Source of the DNA: Gemmatimonadota bacterium
GTDB lineage: Bacteria > Latescibacterota > UBA2968 > UBA8231
Assembly (NCBI GenBank): GCA_002712305.1
Contig: PATE01000058.1
Span: 1 to 18,657, forward strand
Direction of reading: 5' to 3'
Length of the DNA: 18,657 nucleotides
In this document: positions 1,670-16,883 of the stretch, one piece after another
How the letters are laid out: each line of letters starts with the position of its first letter
How positions within the stretch are numbered: position 1 is the first letter of the stretch
Position numbers and translations under genes: made by a program
The notes under the pieces: model-generated
What the model was told of the DNA's origin: nothing
The model's input: the letters and a program-made list of their open reading frames with translations, nothing else
Databases searched by the model: none

Positions 1670-2500
1670 TCAGGACTTGGTGGGGATCGTCTCGCCATCG
1701 GGTCGAGGCGTGTGCGGCCAGTGACCGGAGGGATCACTGCCACGACACGTGATGGCCCGTTGATTCCAGCCATTATGGGCATACACGTCAGGCGGGACGA
1801 AACGCATCGTGAGGCCACAGCGTCGCCGCTCGGACAGATTTGGCTCTGAGCCGTGAAGAAGCAGATCCGTGTGCAGGGAGATCTGACCCGCTCGCATCGT
1901 CAACGCCACCGGTTCGTCGCCGTGTTCGCGGGCGTCGTTGACGGTCTGATTCAGCACGTTGTGCTCGGTCGTATCGCTGTCGTCAAAGTCGATCTGCCCG
2001 TGCACATGTGAACCGGGAATGCGGGTCAGGGCGCCTTTTTCGAAGTCGGCATCGTCGATGGCGAGCCACACCGTCACCGTCTTGCTCGGTGTCAGGGGCC
2101 AGTAGGATGCGTCCTGATGCCAGCTGACGCGTCGTTCGTCTCCCGGCATTTTGCAGAAAAAGTGAGCTCCCCAGCAGATCAGGTCCTGGCCGAGCAGATC
2201 CTGCACGTAGTCGAGAATCCGTGGCTCGATGATCATGTCGTACATGCCGGCACAGTGTGATTGCCAGCCATTGATGGAATACGCATCCCACCCTGCCGAG
2301 GCCGCCCTGGCCATCAGGTCGTCGAAATAGACGCGATTCGCCTCGACCTCGTGTGCGTCATATACGTCGAGGGGAAAGATGTATCCACGGTCGTTGTATT
2401 GCTGGATTTGGGCAGCCGACAGGTGCTCAGGAGAGTCGATGACGCTGGGCACAAATCGCAGATCGCGTCCAAGTTCGGGATGAGCATCGCGTGGAGTCAT
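1670..2500 (-). CDS. Phytanoyl-CoA dioxygenase (PhyH) family non-haem iron oxygenase (276 aa)
   Basis: PhyH enzymes use Fe(II), 2-oxoglutarate and oxygen to hydroxylate an organic substrate. The facial triad is visible as H128-x-D130 in SWHQDASYWPL and the distal H216 in LLLHGSEPN. An arginine in ERRRCGL (about R227) is placed to bind 2-oxoglutarate. The motifs WGAHFFCKMPG and GALTRIPGSH are typical of bacterial PhyH proteins. The frame stays open to 2680, but that stretch has no family similarity and crosses the start of the divergent gene. The ATG at 2500 (MTPRDAHPEL) gives a normal length. The gene is followed one base later by a 2-hydroxyacid dehydrogenase. It is divergent from a second, unrelated 2OG oxygenase across a 149-base gap. 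No substrate can be named: the family acts on fatty acyl chains, small acids and natural products. Soluble; no signal peptide is seen. Confidence 0.92.
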   Translation of the reverse strand: MTPRDAHPELGRDLRFVPSVIDSPEHLSAAQIQQYNDRGYIFPLDVYDAHEVEANRVYFDDLMARAASAGWDAYSINGWQSHCAGMYDMIIEPRILDYVQDLLGQDLICWGAHFFCKMPGDERRVSWHQDASYWPLTPSKTVTVWLAIDDADFEKGALTRIPGSHVHGQIDFDDSDTTEHNVLNQTVNDAREHGDEPVALTMRAGQISLHTDLLLHGSEPNLSERRRCGLTMRFVPPDVYAHNGWNQRAITCRGSDPSGHWPHTPRPDGETIPTKS

Positions 2501-2649
2501 GGAGCAGAATAACAGCTGCGTACCCCTTCGCGACAACTGCCTTGGTGGGGAACCACTTGTTCGGCGTTGCCCCGCAGGACAGATTTGCTGTTCAGATCTG
2601 CCCGGGCCAGTTGTGACTTGTGCCTGAATCAAATACCGGATGAAACGTG
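2501..2649. promoter_or_regulatory. Divergent promoter region between PhyH and 2OG oxygenase genes, with a candidate operator
   Basis: Both flanking oxygenase genes must start transcription in these 149 bases. An imperfect inverted repeat has arms GGACAGAT (2577-2584) and ATCTGCCC (2596-2603), pairing at 7 of 8 positions around an 11-base spacer. It contains the palindromes CAGATCTG and, just beyond, CCCGGG. This could be a regulator site serving both genes. I could not identify convincing -35/-10 boxes, and no regulator gene lies nearby, so this is only a candidate. Confidence 0.3.
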
Positions 2650-3477
2650 ATGAGCTGGGATCCCATCGAAGCAAGCACAATCGACGAAATCCGCGAACGG
2701 GATGTGGATCCCCTGCAGGCGCTCGCTGCCGGTGAAACCCCCGCCATCATCCTGCGACGTGCGTACACAGCGAACGACTGCGCTGAGCTTGTCGGGCGAT
2801 TCCTCGAGCGCCAGCTCATGCGTGACCCGGCCCTGCCCATGAAGGAAGGCGATCGTCGTCGCATCGATATCGGCACCAGCCTGGGGAATCGGGGCGCCGA
2901 CCAGGAGGCCTTTCTGGCGCACGCGGAGACGACGCGGGAACTGTTCAGCGATCTATTCGAGGGATTCCCGAACCCCGTCGACGTCGTCTACGAAGCACTG
3001 CAACAGGTGGCCGGAGATCGGCGACAAGTGCAGACCGCCTTTGAACCAGACGGACGGGCCTATGGGCCGGCGATCTTCCGCATTCACTATGACGGACACG
3101 CCTACCCGCCCCATATCGACCACGTCACCTTGAGAGAAAAGCGCTTCAACTACGCCGTGAGTCGTTTTGAGCACCAGTTTGCGGGGATTCTCTGTGTGCA
3201 GAATGCGGCGAGCGATTCTACAACGCAGGGCGTCCTCCACCAGTGCCTGTGGACGGAACAGGTCCAACCCCACATTCGGGGTCATACCTTCCACGACTAC
3301 GCCACGCAACAGAACATCGGCCATTGTCAGGTAGATCTGCAGCCCGGAGACCTTTATTTCTTCAATACCCGCAACATCCATGAGGTCCCGGCCGTGGAAG
3401 GCGATGATCCGCGCATCGTACTGGCTGTTTTCATCGGATTCAACGAACACGAGCGCGATATCTACGTCTGGGCATGA
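2650..3477 (+). CDS. 2-oxoglutarate/Fe(II)-dependent oxygenase (prolyl-hydroxylase-like fold), substrate unknown (275 aa)
   Basis: The protein has the double-stranded beta-helix iron-site pattern. H155-x-D157 lies in YPPHIDHVTL, the distal H244 in FNTRNIHEVPAV, and a 2OG-binding arginine (R255) in DDPRIVLAVFIGF. The preceding LQPGDLYFFNTR is the usual strand before the distal histidine. It is not a PhyH protein by motif, so the window holds two distinct 2OG oxygenases back to back. ATG 2650 is preceded directly by an in-frame GTG (2647), and either could be used. There is no signal peptide, so it is probably cytoplasmic. The residues ERDIYVWA at the extreme C-terminus are intact and nothing suggests truncation. 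The reaction is presumably hydroxylation or a related oxidation of a small molecule or amino-acid side chain. The sequence alone does not show which. Confidence 0.85.
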   Translation: MSWDPIEASTIDEIRERDVDPLQALAAGETPAIILRRAYTANDCAELVGRFLERQLMRDPALPMKEGDRRRIDIGTSLGNRGADQEAFLAHAETTRELFSDLFEGFPNPVDVVYEALQQVAGDRRQVQTAFEPDGRAYGPAIFRIHYDGHAYPPHIDHVTLREKRFNYAVSRFEHQFAGILCVQNAASDSTTQGVLHQCLWTEQVQPHIRGHTFHDYATQQNIGHCQVDLQPGDLYFFNTRNIHEVPAVEGDDPRIVLAVFIGFNEHERDIYVWA

Positions 3478-6242: not shown

Positions 6243-6977
6243 CTAGTCGTCGCCCTTGGCCCGTCGCAGCTGTTGGCGCGCCCAGCGATTGCGCGGATCC
6301 AACTCGATCGCCTTCTCCAGGGCTGCAATCCCTCCATCCTTGTCGCCACTCTGGATCAGCAGATTGCCGAGCTGCACGTAGGTGTCGGAAGACTCTGGGT
6401 AGTATTCGAGATTCATGCGCAACATACGCAGGCCTACATCTGTTTCGACATCCGTCGCCATCAACATCAGGGTCTTCTCACCAAAATCGTAGGCCGCACG
6501 GCCATAGTACTCCTGCCTCAAGTCGCCATACTTGGCCGCCATCGCCTCGACGCCTCCCTCTTCCAGGGCTTTGGTCAGTAGCTGGGGCAGTGTGTGAGGG
6601 GCCTTCACACCACGGTGGCAAGTGACACACGCCACCCTCATCCCCCCCGGCCGATTCAGGAAGTCCTCGTTGATCTGCTGCGTCATGCGCATCATCGTCC
6701 GCGCGATCTCTTTGTGACTGTTCTCGTCGGAGGCGAAGTCCGTTCGTTGCCCTTCGCGCACATGACAATAGTCACAGCGAACACCAAGTCCCTGCGAAAT
6801 CGCCTTCATCATCGCCTGCAGTGTATCGGGTTCGATGTCGGCAGGAACGACCGTGAGGTTTTTGAATTCCTGTGGGAACCAGCCCTGACCTTCGGTGGGC
6901 ACGACGGTGGTCAGAGCACCGATCAGGGCTAGCAACGGAACGAAACGCAGGGACGAGTGATGGCGTGTCAGATACAT
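6243..6977 (-). CDS. Exported diheme c-type cytochrome, reaction-centre cytochrome-subunit-like, with C-terminal TPR (244 aa)
   Basis: An N-terminal export signal (basic MYLTRHHSSLR, then a hydrophobic run to about residue 27) is followed by FKNLTVVPADI and two haem-binding sites, CDYCH at 68-72 and CVTCH at 117-121. The helix before each site carries methionines (M56/M57 and M95/M96/M98) that could be axial ligands, as in the photosynthetic reaction-centre cytochrome family (CytoC_RC). Residues 197-240 form a tetratricopeptide-type repeat (YVQLGNLLIQSGD, then a second helix with IAALEKAIELDPRN). No photosynthesis gene is present. Members in Acidobacteriota and related groups are non-photosynthetic periplasmic electron carriers, which I take to be the role here. 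ATG 6977 gives the normal signal peptide; a GAGGA lies three bases before it, closer than usual. It is 29 bases downstream of the desaturase stop and probably co-transcribed. Confidence 0.9.
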   Translation of the reverse strand: MYLTRHHSSLRFVPLLALIGALTTVVPTEGQGWFPQEFKNLTVVPADIEPDTLQAMMKAISQGLGVRCDYCHVREGQRTDFASDENSHKEIARTMMRMTQQINEDFLNRPGGMRVACVTCHRGVKAPHTLPQLLTKALEEGGVEAMAAKYGDLRQEYYGRAAYDFGEKTLMLMATDVETDVGLRMLRMNLEYYPESSDTYVQLGNLLIQSGDKDGGIAALEKAIELDPRNRWARQQLRRAKGDD

Positions 6978-7006
6978 GAGTCCTCGGTGCCTGGAGAGTC
7001 GTGGGG

Positions 7007-8044
7007 TTACGTGGAAGCGCTCGGCGGCGTTCCGGCAGGATCCGGCAGAGCTGCCCGCCACTGGTAGTCGGGTTCCGTCTTCTGCCTTTTCAGGATATCG
7101 ATGATTTCGCGCCAGGTGGCGATCAAACCGTTCGAGATTGGGGGCAGTTCGTGGGCAATCGCTTTGTGCAGTTTCCCCAGACGATAACAGGGCACGGCCG
7201 CATACATGTGGTGTTCGATGTGAAAGTTCATGTGCCAGTAGAGAAATCGGACGATCGGGTTCAGGTAGATCGTGCGACTGTTGAGGCGAAAGTCGGGTAC
7301 GTTGTCCGTGAGTCCCACATGTTGAGAACTATTGCACAGCAGGAACAGCCACCCCCCGTAGAAAGAGCCGAAGGTGACCAGCATGATCAGCTGCCACCAG
7401 CCCATGTGCAGGGCACCCGCCACCAGTAGCAGGTGTCCCCCCGTCATGATGCGGTCCCAGATGAACAGCCGGCGCCGGTCCTCCACCTTCTCCGGTGGAA
7501 ACAGGATCTGATCCCACCCCGGATTCAGATGACCGAAAAAACCTCGGCGAATCGTGCCTCGAATACGACGGTAGGCGCCAAGGGGATCGAAGATGGCACC
7601 GCGTAGATACCCCCGCAGCGTCATGTACACGGGGAGCACGACTTCACCATCTTCCGGCGGGTAGAGGGTGTACTTGTGATGCTCAGAGTGACTTGCCCAG
7701 AAATGGGTCGGATTGTACCAGCCGAGAAAACTGAATACGTAGAGAAAGAAGACGTTCAGCTTCTGCGTGCGAAACACCGAGCTGTGCACCAACTCGTGGA
7801 AACCATTGATCATGAAGGCATAACACATGCCGTGCAGGAAAAAGGCAGGAATCCACCAATACCACGCGGCATGGAGCGTCGTCCACCAGGCAAAGGCACC
7901 GGTTGAGGTCAGGGTGCCCAGATAGCCGAGGGTTTGGATCGCGCCCAGCACGTCGCTGCGCCGGTTGAGGTCGGCCAAAACCTGCCGGTCCAGTTTCGTC
8001 CGGTGCCAGCCGATGCGTCGCTTGGGAGTGGTCTCTTCCGCCAT
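7007..8044 (-). CDS. Membrane fatty-acid desaturase-family protein (345 aa)
   Basis: Integral-membrane di-iron desaturases insert double bonds or hydroxylate acyl or hydrocarbon chains. The histidine boxes are intact: HELVH at 83-87, HSEHH at 119-123 and HIEHH at 275-279, with additional H242 (SSQHVGL) and H271. Hydrophobic stretches around residues 37-75, 96-110 and 203-238 would make the membrane hairpins. The first box lies at the end of the first pair, as in the family. ATG 8044 is a normal start. The product could be an acyl-lipid or free-acid desaturase, or a hydroxylase/carotenoid-type relative; the boxes alone do not separate these. The diheme cytochrome is encoded directly downstream, but whether it feeds electrons here is doubtful: desaturase active sites face the cytoplasm while this cytochrome is exported. 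The gene is divergent from a flavin oxidoreductase. Confidence 0.9.
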   Translation of the reverse strand: MAEETTPKRRIGWHRTKLDRQVLADLNRRSDVLGAIQTLGYLGTLTSTGAFAWWTTLHAAWYWWIPAFFLHGMCYAFMINGFHELVHSSVFRTQKLNVFFLYVFSFLGWYNPTHFWASHSEHHKYTLYPPEDGEVVLPVYMTLRGYLRGAIFDPLGAYRRIRGTIRRGFFGHLNPGWDQILFPPEKVEDRRRLFIWDRIMTGGHLLLVAGALHMGWWQLIMLVTFGSFYGGWLFLLCNSSQHVGLTDNVPDFRLNSRTIYLNPIVRFLYWHMNFHIEHHMYAAVPCYRLGKLHKAIAHELPPISNGLIATWREIIDILKRQKTEPDYQWRAALPDPAGTPPSAST

Positions 8045-9720: not shown

Positions 9721-10743
9721 TCACCGCTTGCTGAACGACGTGTCCGGTGTGCCACGGAAACACCCCATCACCCATGGATATCCGTCGGTGACGAAATACG
9801 AGTAAACGTCATCGATCACCATCCCGTTGCATTCATCCAGATCGCCTGAGCCAGCGACGTACTCATAGTCGTCGACGAAGGTGCCATCGTAGGTTCCCCC
9901 TGGATTGACTCCACCGGAAGCCGAGCGCGTGCCATTCTTCAGCTGATAACTGGAGGTGACTTTGCGGACCTGCCCGTCGATCCGGGCGTAGGACCCGTAA
10001 ATGGGAAACCCGTCGGCCACAAAACCGATCACCGGCGACGGCGCCGAGTCATCGTCGGCAAACATGGCCATGGGATTGCCATGGTAGTGATATGTTCCAT
10101 CCGGTTGGGTGTGGGCGTTGTGACTGTCGGTACCAAAATCGGCCGATGCCGCCATCGGATCGTAGCGGAAGGGTGTCCCCATCTGGAAGCACCCGATCTT
10201 GCCGTCACCCACTCCGAAGCAGCCAGCGGCGAGCAGGTCGAGCTTCACGCCATTGAAGAAGACCGCATTGTCGATCTCCAGACTCAATGAGGTCGCTGAG
10301 CCCGCCACCCGTGGCGAGCGTGGTACACGATAGGTCGAAGTCTGGGCGCGAGCCGTGTTCACAAATGTCCGGTCCCCGTCATTGAAGTCGTGGTTGGGGA
10401 TGGCATTCGAGCTGAACACACAGTGGTCGTCCGTCACGGTGACCGATAGTTCACCCGTGAAGTTCATGCTTCGATTGACGTCTCTCACCATCGACTCATA
10501 GGCCGCAGCGTAGTCGGCGCAGTCACCATTTAAACCTGTCAGGATCGCATTCGTGATGTCCTGGACCGTAACGGCAGGACCCGTGACGTCGGTGGGCCCT
10601 GATGTGTCCGCCGGGCCGGTTGCATCCGAAGGTCCGGCATCGATGTCGCCGTCAGCATGGCTGCCTGAGTCCGAACCGCAGGCAAGCAGGACCAACGCCA
10701 TCAGGATTGTGAGAATCTGAAGCAGCAAGCGAGGAATCTTCAT
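9721..10743 (-). CDS. YHYH domain lipoprotein (340 aa)
   Basis: The N-terminus is a lipoprotein signal: basic MKIPR, a hydrophobic run, then the lipobox LLAC with the modified cysteine at C22, followed by GSDSGS. A spacer of four six-residue GP repeats (residues 37-60) separates the membrane anchor from the globular domain. The domain is identified by TQPDGTYHYHGNP (YHYH at 218-221), with FVADGFPIYG (241-250), DECNGM and a C-terminal YSYFVTDGYPWVMGCFRG, all hallmarks of the YHYH family. The histidine- and aspartate-rich motif suggests metal binding, but the biochemical role of the family is not established to my knowledge. Paired cysteines (C75/C108, C175/C185, C305/C328) may form disulfides outside the cytoplasm. 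ATG 10743 fits the signal peptide. It is divergent from the SelA-like gene. Confidence 0.92.
   Translation of the reverse strand: MKIPRLLLQILTILMALVLLACGSDSGSHADGDIDAGPSDATGPADTSGPTDVTGPAVTVQDITNAILTGLNGDCADYAAAYESMVRDVNRSMNFTGELSVTVTDDHCVFSSNAIPNHDFNDGDRTFVNTARAQTSTYRVPRSPRVAGSATSLSLEIDNAVFFNGVKLDLLAAGCFGVGDGKIGCFQMGTPFRYDPMAASADFGTDSHNAHTQPDGTYHYHGNPMAMFADDDSAPSPVIGFVADGFPIYGSYARIDGQVRKVTSSYQLKNGTRSASGGVNPGGTYDGTFVDDYEYVAGSGDLDECNGMVIDDVYSYFVTDGYPWVMGCFRGTPDTSFSKR
10564..10635 (-). repeat. Four tandem 18-base units encoding GP-rich hexapeptides in the lipoprotein spacer
   Basis: Residues 37-60 of the YHYH lipoprotein read as GPSDAT, GPADTS, GPTDVT and GPAVTV: a six-residue, 18-base period with invariant GP. 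This is a flexible linker just after the lipid anchor. Such repeats can vary in copy number between strains. Confidence 0.8.
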
Positions 10744-10866: not shown

Positions 10867-11970
10867 GTGAGCACAAGCCCGCGCACCGCGAGTTACCAGG
10901 AGTTGGGGGTGCGCCCCCTCATCAACTGTGTCGGCACAGTGACTCGATTCAGCGGTTCCCTCGCGTTGCCAGAAGTCCGTCAGGCCATGACCCAAGCCTC
11001 TTTGCAGTACGTGATGATCGAAGAACTCATGGAGGCTGTCGGGGCGCGCCTTGCTCAACTGATGCAGTGCGATTGGGGTCTGGTCACCAATGGATGCGCT
11101 GCCGCTCTCGCGCAGGTAACTGCCGCCTGTGTTGCTGGCACCGACCCCGAGAAGATGGGTCGCCTACCCTACACGGACGGCATGAAGAACGAAGTCATAG
11201 TGCAGAAATCTCATCGCATGGGGTACGACCGGGCGATTTCGGCTGTCGGCACACGCCTCGTCGAGGTGACCACCGTCGACGAACTAGAAGCGGCATACTC
11301 AGAAAAAACAGCGATGATCTTCCTCTTCGGTGACGCGTCGGAGCGAGGCGAGATCAGCGTGAAACAGATGGCCGACAGCGGTCGCGCTCACGGCGTACCC
11401 ACCTTCGTCGATGCCGCAGCAGAGCGACCGGATGTGCCCAACGAGTATCTGTCGCAGGGCATCGATGTCGTCGCCTATTCGGGCGGCAAATGCCTGCGTG
11501 GGCCCCAGGCATCTGGCATGGTGTTGGGTCGGAAGGATCTGCTCCAGGCCGCCTTTGCCAATGGGTGTCCGAATGCCTACATCGGTCGCCCCATGAAGGC
11601 GGGCAAAGAGGAGATCATGGGACTGCTCGCCGCGGTGGAGCAGTGGGTCGTTCGTGATCACCAAGCGGAATGGAAGGAATGGGAACGCCGCCTGCAGATC
11701 ATCACCGACGCGGTGAACGCCTTCAAGTCCGTGACGACGTCCGTGCGCACGCCACGACCCTCCAATGTGGCGCCCCACTTGACCATCTCGTGGGACGCCG
11801 AAAAACTGGGCGTCTCGCCGCCCCAGGTTCGGCAGCAGTTGTCCAAGTCAGATCCTCGTATCGAAATGTCGGGCGGCGCCGACGGCGTGACCATCAATCC
11901 CTACATGATGGAAGATGGAGAAGAGTTGATCGTCGCCAAACGCCTGACCCAGGCGATGTCGACCCACTAG
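10867..11970 (+). CDS. SelA/DgaE-like PLP-dependent enzyme (367 aa)
   Basis: This is a fold-type I PLP protein of the SelA-like superfamily, which covers L-seryl-tRNA(Sec) selenium transferase and sugar-acid ammonia-lyases such as DgaE. The PLP lysine is K208 in VVAYSGGKCLRGPQASG, and the Asp that contacts the pyridine nitrogen is D182 in TFVDAAAE. LINCVGTVTRFSG near the N-terminus (residues 18-30) and VTNGCAAALAQVTAACVAGTD (73-93) are typical of the group. At 367 residues it is about 90 shorter than true SelA and close to DgaE. No selB, selC or selD is present, so a lyase or other PLP reaction on an amino-acid- or sugar-acid-like substrate is more likely than selenocysteine synthesis. The GTG start is fixed by an ideal Shine-Dalgarno (10853-10859). 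No partner gene follows on this strand; the next gene is convergent. Confidence 0.85.
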   Translation: MSTSPRTASYQELGVRPLINCVGTVTRFSGSLALPEVRQAMTQASLQYVMIEELMEAVGARLAQLMQCDWGLVTNGCAAALAQVTAACVAGTDPEKMGRLPYTDGMKNEVIVQKSHRMGYDRAISAVGTRLVEVTTVDELEAAYSEKTAMIFLFGDASERGEISVKQMADSGRAHGVPTFVDAAAERPDVPNEYLSQGIDVVAYSGGKCLRGPQASGMVLGRKDLLQAAFANGCPNAYIGRPMKAGKEEIMGLLAAVEQWVVRDHQAEWKEWERRLQIITDAVNAFKSVTTSVRTPRPSNVAPHLTISWDAEKLGVSPPQVRQQLSKSDPRIEMSGGADGVTINPYMMEDGEELIVAKRLTQAMSTH

Positions 11971-12568: not shown

Positions 12569-12901
12569 ATGACCATGCGCGAACGCCTCGAGCGGATGCC
12601 GGTCGCGAGTCCGATCTGGGCGCAGCGCTACCCTGAACTGCTGACGATCTGGGAAGAAGAGGCCGCAGCGCCGAAAGGCAACATCATTCGGCGGAACGTG
12701 TGTCAGGGCGGAGTCTGGGACGGACTCAGAGAAGATGCACGAAGCTACGTCGAGTTGAGCGCCAATCTCGTCGCCGACGACGTGGGCCTCGAAGGGACGG
12801 CACCACGATTCGGCCTGCGTGCGGACTCACTCGCCCACTCTATCGGTTTCCAACAGATTCCGTTGGAGCAGGTAGGACCCCGAGACCCGTCTACTCGATG
12901 A
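12569..12901 (+). pseudogene. C-terminal remnant of a right-handed parallel beta-helix protein (110 codons)
   Basis: The frame reads like the last hundred or so residues of bacterial beta-helix proteins. RERLERMPVASPIWAQRYPEL is the usual lead-in (residues 4-24), NIIRRNVCQGG is a beta-helix rung, and the end has the typical NLVADDVGL, then FGLRADSLAHSIGFQQIP. A full protein of this kind would have several hundred residues of repeats in front, but upstream DNA is the start region of the FKBP gene on the other strand. The homology begins about two codons after the first ATG, so the break lies near 12569-12577. No Shine-Dalgarno is visible. The 3' end is intact and overlaps the convergent RidA gene by 11 bases. 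I read it as a deletion remnant. A short expressed protein is possible but could not fold as a beta-helix alone. Confidence 0.7.
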
Positions 12902-14114
12902 CGGCAAAGGCGTCGATGGCCACCTCGAGGTCGGGACGCCACAGTGCCTCCACGACCAATCCCGTCGAAGCGGGATTCACACCGGACAGGTGTCTGCCGA
13001 AGACGGGATAGACGTCCAATCGAGCTGCCTGATCGATGACGAAGGTCGTGACCTTGCAGATGTCCTCCATCCGGCCCCCCATTTCCTCGAGCAAGGTCCG
13101 CACGTTCTCCATCGCCTGTTCGGCCTGCGCCGTCACATCGCCAGCCCCCGTCAGTCCGCTGCCGTCCAGCCGCAGACCGCTCTGCCCCTGAAGAAACAGG
13201 AATCTTCCGGCCCGCACGGCGTGGCTCTGTGGCCACGCAGAATGGCCATCGACCTGCGGTACCTGGAAACGCTGATGTTCGCTGCCCTCCGATGAGGGTA
13301 TGGCGAATACATCAATCTCAAAGTCGAGTTCGGGTCGAGCGAGGTCATTCACATGGATGCTGGTGACCACAGGGCGAACACCCTCAAAGTGGTCTGCCAA
13401 CACCGCGTCGATCTGCTGACGATGGGCGGGATCGGTGAGATAGGTCGTGACCTTGCAGACATCGTCGATCGTGGCACCCGCATCGGCGAGCAGCGTTTTC
13501 ACGTTCTGCATAGCCACCTCCACCTGACGCGCCGGATCGCCCGCCCCGTCGAAATCACGGCCATCCAGACTCAGGCCGGTCTGGCCCTGAAGGAAGATGT
13601 GGTCGTTCGCACGAATCACGCGGGCATTCGGATAGTCGAGGGTCGGCATGAGAAAACCGCCCTTGGCATTGGTCAGACGGAATCGTTCGTGCCCCCTCTC
13701 CCGATCGCGAGGCAGCACCGCCCAGGCGTCGATCTCGAAATCGATATAGGGTTGAGCGAAATCCTTCACCACGAGTCCCGTGGACACGGGATTGACCGCG
13801 TGCAGGTGACGGGCGATGACGGGATAGACCAACGCTCGATCGGCATGTCGTTTGGTGTAGTTGTTCACGAGACAGATGTCTTCGAGCCCGCCGCCAGCCT
13901 CCTCCAGCAGGATGCGGAGATTCTCCATGGCCTGCTCCGCTTGGGCAGCGGGATCCCCTTCGCCGACGAAACCGGTGTTATCGAGTGTGAGCCCCGTGGC
14001 CCCGACGAGGAAGACCTGATCTGCTGCGACGACCGCTTTGCTGGCGCCGAAGTCCCATTCGCGAGCGTGATAACTGTCTCGCGTGTTAACGACACGGATC
14101 CGTCGATGCGACAT
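12891..14114 (-). CDS. Triple-domain RidA (YjgF/YER057c/UK114) protein (407 aa)
   Basis: Three RidA-like domains lie in one chain, at about residues 14-134, 158-273 and 291-407. Each repeats the same order: VFLVGATGLTLD / IFLQGQTGLSLDG / LFLQGQSGLRLDG; then GDPAAQAEQAMENLRILLEE / GDPARQVEVAMQNVKTLL / GDVTAQAEQAMENVRTLLEE; then a CKVTTY-like strand and a closing DFEIDAWAV / DFEIDVFAI / EVAIDAFAV. RidA proteins are normally about 130-residue homotrimers that hydrolyse reactive enamines/imines. The arginine that binds the substrate carboxylate (R105 in E. coli) is replaced by S111, V250 and S383. The family Glu is kept in domains 1 and 2 (FEID) but is Ala in domain 3 (VAID). ATG 14114 is preceded by in-frame GTG 14117 and by AGGA/GAGG at 14124-14132. 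It is the last gene of the htpG operon, 33 bases after the dehydrogenase. Confidence 0.92.
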   Translation of the reverse strand: MSHRRIRVVNTRDSYHAREWDFGASKAVVAADQVFLVGATGLTLDNTGFVGEGDPAAQAEQAMENLRILLEEAGGGLEDICLVNNYTKRHADRALVYPVIARHLHAVNPVSTGLVVKDFAQPYIDFEIDAWAVLPRDRERGHERFRLTNAKGGFLMPTLDYPNARVIRANDHIFLQGQTGLSLDGRDFDGAGDPARQVEVAMQNVKTLLADAGATIDDVCKVTTYLTDPAHRQQIDAVLADHFEGVRPVVTSIHVNDLARPELDFEIDVFAIPSSEGSEHQRFQVPQVDGHSAWPQSHAVRAGRFLFLQGQSGLRLDGSGLTGAGDVTAQAEQAMENVRTLLEEMGGRMEDICKVTTFVIDQAARLDVYPVFGRHLSGVNPASTGLVVEALWRPDLEVAIDAFAVIE

Positions 14115-14147: not shown

Positions 14148-15137
14148 CTAGTGCGACCAGAGTCGCTTGTATTTGTCGTCACCTTCGAACTCCAGCATTT
14201 GGTCATACACCGCCTGCAGGGGTTCCAGCGCAGCGACCCCATCTTCGGCGCTACAGTTGGCAGGTCGTGACGCCCGAACAGAGGCGAAGAATTCCTGGTT
14301 CTGCACCAGGACGCCGGTCTCGTCTGCGTTCGCCGTCGTTTCGAAAACCGTGTCCCCAGCGAAACGAATTGTGCGACCGGCGATCTCGAGGACGCCGTTC
14401 TCACAGAGGAATCGATGTCCACCTGCGCCTTGCGGAGCGTTGTAGGACAGGCTGATCGTCGCCATCGCCTCGTTCTCGTAGCGAATCAGCAGACTCACAT
14501 CCATGGAGGTGTCGTTGATCGGGTGTTTCGGCGCCAGCTCTCCCCGCACGCGCCGCACCGGTGAATCGATCGTCCACAGAGAATAGTCGACCAGATGGCA
14601 GCCATGGTGAAAGACGACGTCGTCGACCCAACTCCGTTGGTAGCCGGTCCAGCCCACATTCTCGTGACGGAAGGAGAAACTGAAGACCTGGTGCTGATAG
14701 ATCTGCCCGGCCTTGCCCGAAGAGAGGAAGTCTTTGACGAACAGACCCGTGTCGGTGAATCGTTCCGTGTGGGCCACCATCACATTCCTGCCCACCTCCG
14801 CCGCTTTCTCAGCAATGCGCTGTGAACCGGCCAGCGACAGAGCGAGGGGAATCTCGACGAGGACATGTTTGCCTGCTTCGAGGCAAGCCATGGTTTGTTC
14901 GTAGTGAACCTGTGAGGGAGAGGCGATGATGACGGCATCCAACTCGTCATCGGCCAGGGCCTCTTGCAGAGAATCCGTGGCGCGCTCGAAGCCATGTCGC
15001 GTGGCGAATTCCTTGGCGGGCTCGAGTCGACGTCCCATCAGCGTGTACAGACGAACACCTTCTATCTGCTTGCAGGCCCCCGCGTGAAACTCGGCGATGC
15101 CACCGTAGCCGACGATACAGCAGGAGAGGGAATCCAT
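14148..15137 (-). CDS. Gfo/Idh/MocA-family dehydrogenase with EIP in place of EKP (329 aa)
   Basis: NAD(P)-dependent dehydrogenases of this family oxidise sugars, inositols and some aromatic semialdehydes. The N-terminal Rossmann motif is IVGYGGIAEFHAG (residues 8-20), and the second domain begins after IIASPSQVHYEQT (70-82). The motif usually read EKP, whose lysine takes part in catalysis in sugar-type members, is here E95-I96-P97 in HVLVEIPLALSL. The motif around RSWVDDVVFHHGCHLVDYSLW (split here: RSWVDDVV, then HHGCHLVDYSLW) carries the other expected catalytic His and Asp. From memory, LigC-type 4-carboxy-2-hydroxymuconate-6-semialdehyde dehydrogenases share both the EIP and the RSW...HH...H pattern, so a semialdehyde or hemiacetal substrate is possible. 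ATG 15137 is the natural start. The gene lies 13 bases downstream of the ferredoxin and 33 upstream of the RidA gene. Substrate unknown. Confidence 0.88.
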   Translation of the reverse strand: MDSLSCCIVGYGGIAEFHAGACKQIEGVRLYTLMGRRLEPAKEFATRHGFERATDSLQEALADDELDAVIIASPSQVHYEQTMACLEAGKHVLVEIPLALSLAGSQRIAEKAAEVGRNVMVAHTERFTDTGLFVKDFLSSGKAGQIYQHQVFSFSFRHENVGWTGYQRSWVDDVVFHHGCHLVDYSLWTIDSPVRRVRGELAPKHPINDTSMDVSLLIRYENEAMATISLSYNAPQGAGGHRFLCENGVLEIAGRTIRFAGDTVFETTANADETGVLVQNQEFFASVRASRPANCSAEDGVAALEPLQAVYDQMLEFEGDDKYKRLWSH

Positions 15138-15150
15138 GGGGCGCTGTGAG

Positions 15151-15498
15151 CTAACCCTCTCGTTCGATCTGTCGGAAAGGCTCCGGATTCACGAACTCTG
15201 TCACCACCTGACCGCCGATGAGATGTTCGGTGATGATGCGTTCCATCTTCTCAACCGTCAGTTGGTGATACCAGGTCTGGTCGGGCCAGACCATCGCCGT
15301 TGGCCCCTTCTCACAGACACGAAGGCAGTCTGCTTTGGTGCGATGAACCCCCGAGCGGGGATCACCGTATCCGAGTTCTCGCAGTCTCTTCTTGAGATAG
15401 TCCCAGATTTCGGCGCCCGAACCGTCGGTGTGGCACTTCGCTTTGGTCGGCGTCGCACACAGGAAGATGTGCCGCTCGATCGTGTCATCCGTCTGCAT
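15151..15498 (-). CDS. Thioredoxin-like [2Fe-2S] ferredoxin (115 aa)
   Basis: This small protein of the thioredoxin-fold [2Fe-2S] ferredoxin family resembles the ferredoxin domains of NuoE and formate dehydrogenases. HIFLCATPTKAKC gives C14 and C22, and KADCLRVCEKGPTAMVWPD gives C58 and C62, a C-x7-C ... C-x3-C pattern able to bind one cluster. WYHQLTVEKMERIITEHLIGG near the end is diagnostic (split: WYHQLTVEKM, ERIITEHLIGG). It carries single electrons to or from an unidentified partner. The open frame extends 12 codons further to 15534 and into proA, but the ATG at 15498 has AGAGAG a few bases upstream and leaves a normal 17-base gap after proA. The adjacent dehydrogenase is pyridine-nucleotide type and would not itself need a ferredoxin, so linkage by operon does not prove partnership. 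Confidence 0.9.
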   Translation of the reverse strand: MQTDDTIERHIFLCATPTKAKCHTDGSGAEIWDYLKKRLRELGYGDPRSGVHRTKADCLRVCEKGPTAMVWPDQTWYHQLTVEKMERIITEHLIGGQVVTEFVNPEPFRQIEREG

Positions 15499-15515
15499 CG
15501 ACTCTCTTTGTGTCG

Positions 15516-16883
15516 TCACGAGGCGCGCGTCCAATCCTTGTCGAGGGACCGATGCGTATACGGTTTGGCGGTCTCGCCGGAGTAGTCGTCGACGATCTGG
15601 CCGTCTCCCTCCAACAGATACTTGTAGGTCGTCAGACCTTCGAGACCGACCGGCCCCCGGCTGTGGAGACGACCGGTGCTGATGCCAATTTCGGCGCCCA
15701 GTCCGTAGCGATAGCCGTCGGCGAAACGTGTTGAGGCGTTGACGAAAACCGATGCCGAGTCGACGCCCTGCAGGAACCGGGTTGCAGCCGCCTTGTCCTC
15801 GGTCACGATTGAATCCGTATGGGCGGAGCCAAAACGATTGATGTGGTCGATCGCCTCTTCGAGGCTGTCCACGATCTTCACCGAGAGCACGTAGTCGAGA
15901 TACTCGGCACTCCAGTCCTTTTCCGTCGCCGCTTCCACCTGGCCATTCACGCCGGGCAGCGCCCGCACCCGATCATCGCCACGGATCAGGACCTTCGCCT
16001 CTCCGAGATCCTTGATGGCGCGCTGCAGGAACGACTCGGCCATGTCGGCGTGCACCAGCAAGGTCTCTTCCGTGCAACAGGTGGAGACGTCCTGAATCTT
16101 GGAGTCCACAGCAACTCGCAGGGCCTTGTCGAAATCGGCGGCTGCATCAACGTAAACGTGACAGACGCCATCGGTGTGACCGGTGACGGGGATCTTCGTA
16201 TTCGCCATCACGTAGGCGGCAAAGTCTTTTGACCCGCGCGGGATGATGAGATCGATCGCATCATCCATGCCGAGGATCTCGGTCACATCACCACGCGTTT
16301 CAAGCAGGGTCAGCCAACCGGCAGGAATCCCCTCCACCGCTTCGGTGGCACGTGTGATCACGTCGGCAAGAATTCGATTGGAATTTGCCGCTTCGGATCC
16401 ACCCTTGAGCAGCACGGCGTTGCCCGACTTCAGGCACAGCGCCGCAATCTGGACCAGCGCGTCGGGGCGAGACTCGAAGATGACCCCAACGACACCGATG
16501 GGAACGGTGACTCGGAACAACTCCAGGCCCTGGTCGAGTTCCGTAGCCCGCTGTGTCTGCCAAAGCGGATCGGGTTGGCCCGCCACGGAACGCACCATGT
16601 CGAGGGCGGTCTCAAACTTGCCTTTGCGCAGGTCGAGACGTGCCACCAGGGGCTCACCAATCTCGCCCTTGACCGCCAGCGTCGTCGCCGCATCACAGTC
16701 GAGGGTATTGGCCGCCATGATGGCGTCACGCTCGGACACCATCGCCGCTGCAATCGCCTCTAACGCCGCATCGCGCACCGACGGGTCGGTGGCTGCCAGT
16801 TTTCGCGCTGCGTCGCGGGCACCCAGCGCCCGACTGCGCAGAACACTGTCGGATGCGGTCGTCTCGGTTTTTGCCGTCGTCAT
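15516..16883 (-). CDS. proA: Gamma-glutamyl phosphate reductase (glutamate-5-semialdehyde dehydrogenase, 455 aa)
   Basis: ProA reduces L-glutamyl 5-phosphate with NADPH to glutamate-5-semialdehyde, which cyclises to pyrroline-5-carboxylate on the way to proline. The aldehyde-dehydrogenase-type fold is seen in VPIGVVGVIFESRPD (residues 127-141), GNAVLLKGGSEAANSN (154-169) and IIPRGSK (213-219). The active-site cysteine aligns with C269 in DVSTCCTEETLLVH; C270 next to it is unusual. The C-terminal block GAEIGISTGRLHSRGPVGLEG is diagnostic (listed from about residue 403). The protein is somewhat longer than the common 415-420 residues because of extra residues at both ends. ATG 16883 sits 19 bases after htpG and the gene is followed 17 bases later by the ferredoxin. 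proB and proC are not in the window, so proline synthesis genes are dispersed in this genome. Confidence 0.96.
   Translation of the reverse strand: MTTAKTETTASDSVLRSRALGARDAARKLAATDPSVRDAALEAIAAAMVSERDAIMAANTLDCDAATTLAVKGEIGEPLVARLDLRKGKFETALDMVRSVAGQPDPLWQTQRATELDQGLELFRVTVPIGVVGVIFESRPDALVQIAALCLKSGNAVLLKGGSEAANSNRILADVITRATEAVEGIPAGWLTLLETRGDVTEILGMDDAIDLIIPRGSKDFAAYVMANTKIPVTGHTDGVCHVYVDAAADFDKALRVAVDSKIQDVSTCCTEETLLVHADMAESFLQRAIKDLGEAKVLIRGDDRVRALPGVNGQVEAATEKDWSAEYLDYVLSVKIVDSLEEAIDHINRFGSAHTDSIVTEDKAAATRFLQGVDSASVFVNASTRFADGYRYGLGAEIGISTGRLHSRGPVGLEGLTTYKYLLEGDGQIVDDYSGETAKPYTHRSLDKDWTRAS

Follow-up and report, generated by a model that had tools for sequence, protein, structure and literature searches.

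A three-domain Rid protein without the catalytic arginine is predicted to form a single-chain pseudo-trimer in a Latescibacterota bacterium

The 3x-Rid locus

We analysed a stretch of 18,657 nucleotides (the window) on contig PATE01000058.1 of GenBank assembly GCA_002712305.1, deposited as a Gemmatimonadota bacterium and placed by GTDB in the Latescibacterota. The host is a marine bacterium. On the minus strand, codons at 12894-14114 and a stop at 12891-12893 define a protein of 407 residues, and a purine-rich tract lies immediately 5' of its ATG. This gene, here called the 3x-Rid gene, its domains and its upstream neighbours are as follows:

12891..14114, minus strand: 3x-Rid gene (407 amino acids plus stop), recognised by PF01042 matches and orthologues
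13701..14114, minus strand: domain 1 (residues 1-138), PF01042 score 51.8 bits, slowest-evolving relative to the congeneric copy
13290..13700, minus strand: domain 2 (residues 139-275), PF01042 score 68.9 bits
12894..13289, minus strand: domain 3 (residues 276-407), PF01042 score 64.1 bits, fastest evolving, with a shortened N-terminal hairpin
14148..15137, minus strand: Gfo/Idh/MocA oxidoreductase gene, 33 bases upstream of the 3x-Rid gene
15151-15534, minus strand: small cysteine-containing open reading frame, farther upstream
15516-16883, minus strand: aldehyde-dehydrogenase-family gene, farther upstream

The Gfo/Idh/MocA gene and the 3x-Rid gene are likely co-transcribed. From a reading of its sequence, we take the aldehyde-dehydrogenase-family gene to be ProA-like, and a Pfam search at 1e-8 matched the small open reading frame to no family. 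The order of the Gfo/Idh/MocA gene, the small frame and the ProA-like gene beside the 3x-Rid gene is kept only in a congener (locus L020), and therefore no pathway can be assigned to the three-domain gene. When the neighbours of three-domain genes were clustered by BLAST, only lineage-specific pairs had genes in common beyond this congener, such as L021/L022, L025/L028 and L031/L035; the neighbourhoods of L025 and L028 share an argJ-family gene and an amino-acid-kinase gene.

A SelA/DgaE-related PLP enzyme, which scores below the DgaE cut-offs and is a possible ammonia lyase, is encoded on the plus strand at 10867-11970. A functional tie between this enzyme and the 3x-Rid gene was considered and left as weak, as the two genes lie on opposite strands and an FKBP-type gene intervenes.

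Three Rid domains in one chain

The Pfam family PF01042 (RidA/YjgF) matches the 3x-Rid protein in three stretches, with an E-value of 1.6e-52 and 177 bits in total, and TIGR00004 also matches three stretches. In a six-frame search of the genome, each domain alone exceeds the PF01042 cut-off of 27.3 bits within a single open frame, which places all three in the Rid (YjgF/YER057c/UK114) superfamily as defined by this curated cut-off. Seven more PF01042 matches are found elsewhere in the same genome. The initial annotation described three complete RidA-like repeats; their number is confirmed, but domain 3 is less than complete, as its N-terminal hairpin is shortened and poorly modelled (residues ~280-295).

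A subset of RidA proteins with three fused domains was termed '3x-RidA' in 2015 and described as 'presumably covalently linked trimer units' (PMC4433059), and therefore both the architecture and the idea of a fused trimer are already on record. The window protein fits this class by its three tandem fused RidA-type domains. Its named member EF_0115 from Enterococcus faecalis is likewise a tandem three-domain fusion, a likeness taken from the published description only. The main text of that study reports no structure or activity for any 3x-RidA and is silent on the residue of EF_0115 that corresponds to Arg105 (see below).

Active-site residues

In TdcF, the invariant pocket residues are Tyr17, Gly31, Asn56, Asn88, Arg105, Pro114 and Glu120 (PMC1884159), and the Arg and Glu of one site are contributed by neighbouring subunits (PMC4960622). 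Residue equivalences to TdcF were taken from sequence alignment, and the key positions, all on the minus strand, are as follows:

13782..13784, minus strand: Ser111, at the place of catalytic Arg105, domain 1 (alignment)
13365..13367, minus strand: Val250, at the place of Arg105, domain 2 (alignment)
12966..12968, minus strand: Ser383, at the place of Arg105, domain 3 (alignment)
13734..13736, minus strand: Glu127, Glu120 equivalent of domain 1 (15/15 homologues)
13317..13319, minus strand: Glu266, Glu120 equivalent of domain 2 (14/15 homologues)
12918..12920, minus strand: Ala399, at the place of Glu120 in domain 3 (Glu in 11/15, lost in the window lineage)
13836..13838, minus strand: Arg93, two residues past the Asn88 position, domain 1 (14/15 domain 1 copies)
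13419..13421, minus strand: Arg232, same position, domain 2 (12/15 domain 2 copies)
13020..13022, minus strand: Arg365, same position, domain 3 (15/15 domain 3 copies)

Arg105, which binds the substrate carboxylate in imine-hydrolysing RidA and Rid1-3 proteins, is found in none of the three domains, and it is also missing in the aligned three-domain homologues. The Asn88 position is Ala in domains 1, 2 and 3. Every domain retains the pocket Gly (residues 38, 177 and 310), the Asn56 equivalent (residues 65, 204 and 337) and the Pro. Tyr17 corresponds to Tyr15 in domain 1 and Phe154 in domain 2, and the alignment gives no clear counterpart in domain 3. The window protein therefore resembles RidA, TdcF and RutC in its fold, in the pocket Gly, Asn56 and Pro of each domain and in Glu120 of two of the three, but it differs from them in having neither Arg105 nor Asn88 in any domain and in being one chain, not three. 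We also considered the conserved Asp129, Asp268 and Asp401 as Glu120 equivalents and rejected them, because the alignment puts the equivalent two positions earlier.

The proposal that the three interface sites have diverged from one another is borne out at the Arg105 place (Ser, Val, Ser), at the Glu120 place (Glu, Glu, Ala) and by the unclear Tyr17 counterpart of domain 3. Besides differing among themselves, all three aligned sites are unlike those of RidA. The loss of Arg105 from all three domains of one protein is not described in PMC4433059, and it is this loss, together with the asymmetric decay of domain 3, that distinguishes the window protein. About 10% of RidA proteins carry Ser in place of this Arg (PMC4433059), a group that may include the Arg-less clade discussed below. 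All 63 single-domain relatives carry the Arg that follows the Asn88 position by two residues, and Arg93, Arg232 and Arg365 are candidate replacement substrate anchors.

Conservation and origin of the fusion

When 60 relatives' genomes were searched, full-length homologues were found in six genomes besides the window's own, with 41-83% identity. A scan of genome contigs gave intact three-domain frames at 14 other loci (L020-L029, L031-L033 and L035), several of which the 60-genome search had already found. At L030, L034 and L036, the three-domain frame is interrupted by contig ends or breaks, and the relatives from L037 onward are single-domain proteins. The record titles of the three-domain loci name Gemmatimonadetes, Candidatus Latescibacterota, SAR202/Chloroflexi and Gammaproteobacteria. 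When the complete protein was searched against plasmids (419 records), the hits among the matches listed were single-domain genes, each matched three times.

Compared with the congeneric copy, domain 1 has a dN/dS (Nei-Gojobori) of ~0.02, domain 2 of ~0.06 and domain 3 of ~0.19. The values are approximate because synonymous change is close to saturated, but they point to purifying selection on every domain, loosest in domain 3. With dN far below dS and intact homologues at 14 loci, we ruled out that the three-domain frame arose by chance, frameshift or assembly artefact.

In a tree of individual domains, domains 1, 2 and 3 of the window group form mostly position-specific sets across phyla, and therefore the triplication is old. 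The proteins from L031-L033 and L035 (Gammaproteobacteria and Gemmatimonad records) form three sets of their own, and the nearest single-domain relatives, from Chloroflexi, branch within the fusion clade. A single clade of all three-domain proteins was rejected by the AU test (p 0.009). When the domain sets were tested one at a time, domain 1 was rejected (p 0.0035), domain 3 marginally rejected (p 0.036) and domain 2 not rejected (p 0.17), values to be read with the few columns, the long branches and the naming of groups after the tree had been seen in mind. The rejection of one clade makes at least two independent triplications likely, and these probably started from Arg-less single-domain ancestors. 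L028 may represent a third triplication.

Predicted structure

RidA normally builds its three-fold barrel from three separate chains. An AlphaFold2 model of the window protein, predicted from an alignment of 14 three-domain proteins, has a mean pLDDT of 92.5 and a pTM of 0.91, and its sole weakly modelled part is the shortened start of domain 3 (residues ~280-295). The model shows the YjgF-type fold, overlaying solved RidA chains at ~1.5-2 Å, mostly through domain 3; predicted domain 1 overlays the RidA-type chains 3kjj and 3kjk at ~1.5-2 Å. Chorismatases rank at the top in Foldseek, with 368-373 aligned columns. In VIA-align, the model matches a chorismatase with Z 27.6 and 2.9 Å over 288 residues (model residues 31-405), the FIST domain of FBXO22 with Z 16.7, and cyanuric acid hydrolase with Z 10.9 and an rmsd of 4.9 Å. 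These three proteins have YjgF-like folds with pseudo-three-fold symmetry in one chain, and such single-chain pseudo-trimers could derive from the trimeric YjgF fold (PMC3758960; PMC11185555).

The chorismatases (FkbO, 4bps; 5ag3, 5a3k) share with the window model a single-chain YjgF-like pseudo-trimer as the fold of the whole chain, but they have 16-18% identity to the window protein, give no significant sequence match and carry out different chemistry. The cyanuric acid hydrolase AtzD ('Toblerone' fold) is also one chain, thought to be concatenated from three YjgF-type monomers (PMC3758960), with a central barrel, three Ser-Lys dyads and a metal. Its overlay on the window model is weaker than that of chorismatase, and searches for cyanuric acid hydrolase or barbiturase gave no family model or sequence match to the window protein.

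Ring closure was read from the pTM and from superposition on other pseudo-trimers. Because the whole chain overlays single-chain pseudo-trimers, the ring is predicted to close, and the window protein is very likely to have a YjgF fold and to form a single-chain pseudo-trimer. The pseudo-trimer proposed in the initial annotation is thus supported by the structure prediction that it called for, with confident domain placement and overlay on solved pseudo-trimers of the same fold. We consider it very improbable that the ring fails to close within one chain and that chains instead form trimers via a single domain of each, or by domain swapping. Closure is a property of a predicted structure, which leaves some room for such an arrangement, but the pTM of 0.91 and the full-length overlay on single chains of chorismatase and cyanuric acid hydrolase argue against it. 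The outcome repeats for L033, a relative belonging to the second fusion group (pTM 0.92, chorismatase Z 27.7); its model is not fully independent, since the alignment included the window protein and its relatives.

Single-domain relatives without the arginine

The three-domain family belongs to an Arg-less Rid clade, whose single-domain part comprises 63 loci (L037-L099), plus L103 in the window's own genome. These single-domain members share ~37-57% identity with the window protein over the best segment, as well as the motifs P-x-S-T-G (replacing P-A-R), D-P-A-x-Q-A and E-I-D. They differ from it in having one domain, in carrying Arg in 57/63 where the window protein has Val37, Gln176 and Gln309, and in often lying in oxygenase, M20 and DUF1028 clusters. 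A gene family represented by DUF1028 is found within 4.5 kb at 27/63 single-domain loci, M20-type hydrolases at 20 loci and HpaB-type monooxygenases at 16 loci; the Pfam identities of these neighbour families were checked on one representative apiece. No such DUF1028/M20 neighbourhood was found around the three-domain gene. Our literature search on the Rid-DUF1028 pairing, which recurs in many genomes, found nothing. The neighbours of the single-domain relatives, flavin monooxygenases or a Rieske oxygenase among them, suggest that the clade may serve catabolic pathways in which an oxygenase yields a reactive nitrogen-containing intermediate.

In the window's own genome, L103 is flanked on one side by an M20 hydrolase and an acyl-CoA-dehydrogenase-like gene, and on the other by Rieske oxygenase, DUF1028 and MttB-family genes. 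The cluster (contig C88, 2203-9564) includes M20, acyl-CoA-dehydrogenase-like, Rid, Rieske oxygenase, DUF1028, PhyH-like and MttB-family genes, and it looks like one for the catabolism of methylated or quaternary amines; a literature search for homarine genes found nothing. At 5651-6921 of contig C64, a second DUF1028 gene neighbours a further PF01042 gene encoded on the other strand; this DUF1028 gene consists of two adjoining matches in different frames, possibly owing to a frameshift.

Possible function

RidA and RutC are inactive once the Arg is lost (PMC4433059, PMC8113886). As the Arg for the substrate carboxylate is missing at all three clefts, the published mutants imply that the window protein is likely not a classical RidA 2-iminoacid deaminase. 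An ordinary RidA-type imine or enamine deaminase made as a single chain would agree with the best curated model, TIGR00004 'Rid family detoxifying hydrolase' (147 bits, above cut-off), with RidA-family proteins being the closest solved domains by sequence, and with the PLP-dependent ammonia-lyase-like gene close by (10867-11970). We nevertheless regard it as quite improbable, since an activity-essential Arg is absent at three sites here and in the aligned three-domain homologues, Rid proteins with this Arg exchanged show no activity (PMC8113886, PMC4433059), and the TIGR00004 match mirrors the fold family, not the activity. A hydrolase or lyase of the chorismatase kind, whose substrate would be chorismate or a related enolpyruvyl compound, draws on the top whole-chain structural match and on the sole sequence match to FkbO, which is not significant (family profile, residues 185-268 against FkbO 250-340, E 0.22). 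We give this reading very little credence: identity is 16-18%, no chorismatase family model is matched, no shikimate-pathway neighbours were seen, and single RidA domains are far better sequence matches.

The protein might also be a scaffold instead of an enzyme, as pocket residues are eroded in all clefts, most of all in domain 3, and the model overlays FBXO22 (Z 16.7), a protein without an obvious ligand pocket (PMC11185555). This seems unlikely to us, because the pocket Gly, the Pro and two Glu are retained under purifying selection, and the single-domain relatives resemble pathway enzymes by their neighbourhood. We lean moderately towards a specialised enzyme; the functional inference from single-domain relatives to the three-domain protein is indirect.

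With moderate confidence, we favour a single-chain pseudo-trimer with unequal clefts, a non-classical enzyme derived from an Arg-less Rid ancestor. Three fused Rid domains would close into the RidA-type three-fold barrel of the model, and fusion would have allowed the three inter-domain clefts to become unequal, as their residues are. An oxidoreductase or monooxygenase may have supplied the ancestral Arg-less Rid enzyme with its substrate, an unsaturated or nitrogen-containing intermediate. Catalysis would proceed via the pocket residues Glu127 and Glu266 of domains 1 and 2, with Arg93, Arg232 or Arg365 perhaps as the new substrate anchor, and the cleft edged by the Glu-less domain 3 strand may have shifted towards structure or binding. 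A broader idea, which we put forward tentatively and consider doubtful, is that Rid pseudo-trimers of one chain arose recurrently from Arg-less single-domain enzymes, through at least two independent threefold fusions (Latescibacterota/Chloroflexi and Gammaproteobacteria). Fusion would have left each cleft free to specialise, yielding an asymmetric enzyme whose new chemistry relies on a relocated Arg, and such proteins would represent a natural intermediate on the way to folds like those of chorismatase and cyanuric acid hydrolase.

As three-in-one versions of a homotrimer, the window protein and its kin exist beside still-recognisable single-domain relatives. They offer a test case for asking how symmetric active sites can grow apart once fused, a course that has been supposed for cyanuric acid hydrolase. 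For the Arg-less Rid clade tied to DUF1028/oxygenase clusters, the annotation 'RidA / imine deaminase' is probably wrong on function.

Other genes in the window

A divergent pair encodes a WelO5-like halogenase homologue (2647-3477, plus strand; PF22814, E 6e-21) and a PhyH-family protein (1670-2620, minus strand), the latter also matched by a chlorinating-enzyme model below its cut-off. The minus-strand gene at 9721-10743 encodes a YHYH-domain protein (PF14240) whose N-terminus suggests that it is secreted or a lipoprotein. At 6243-7061, also on the minus strand, a CxxCH haem-binding motif followed by apparent TPR repeats was recognised by eye.
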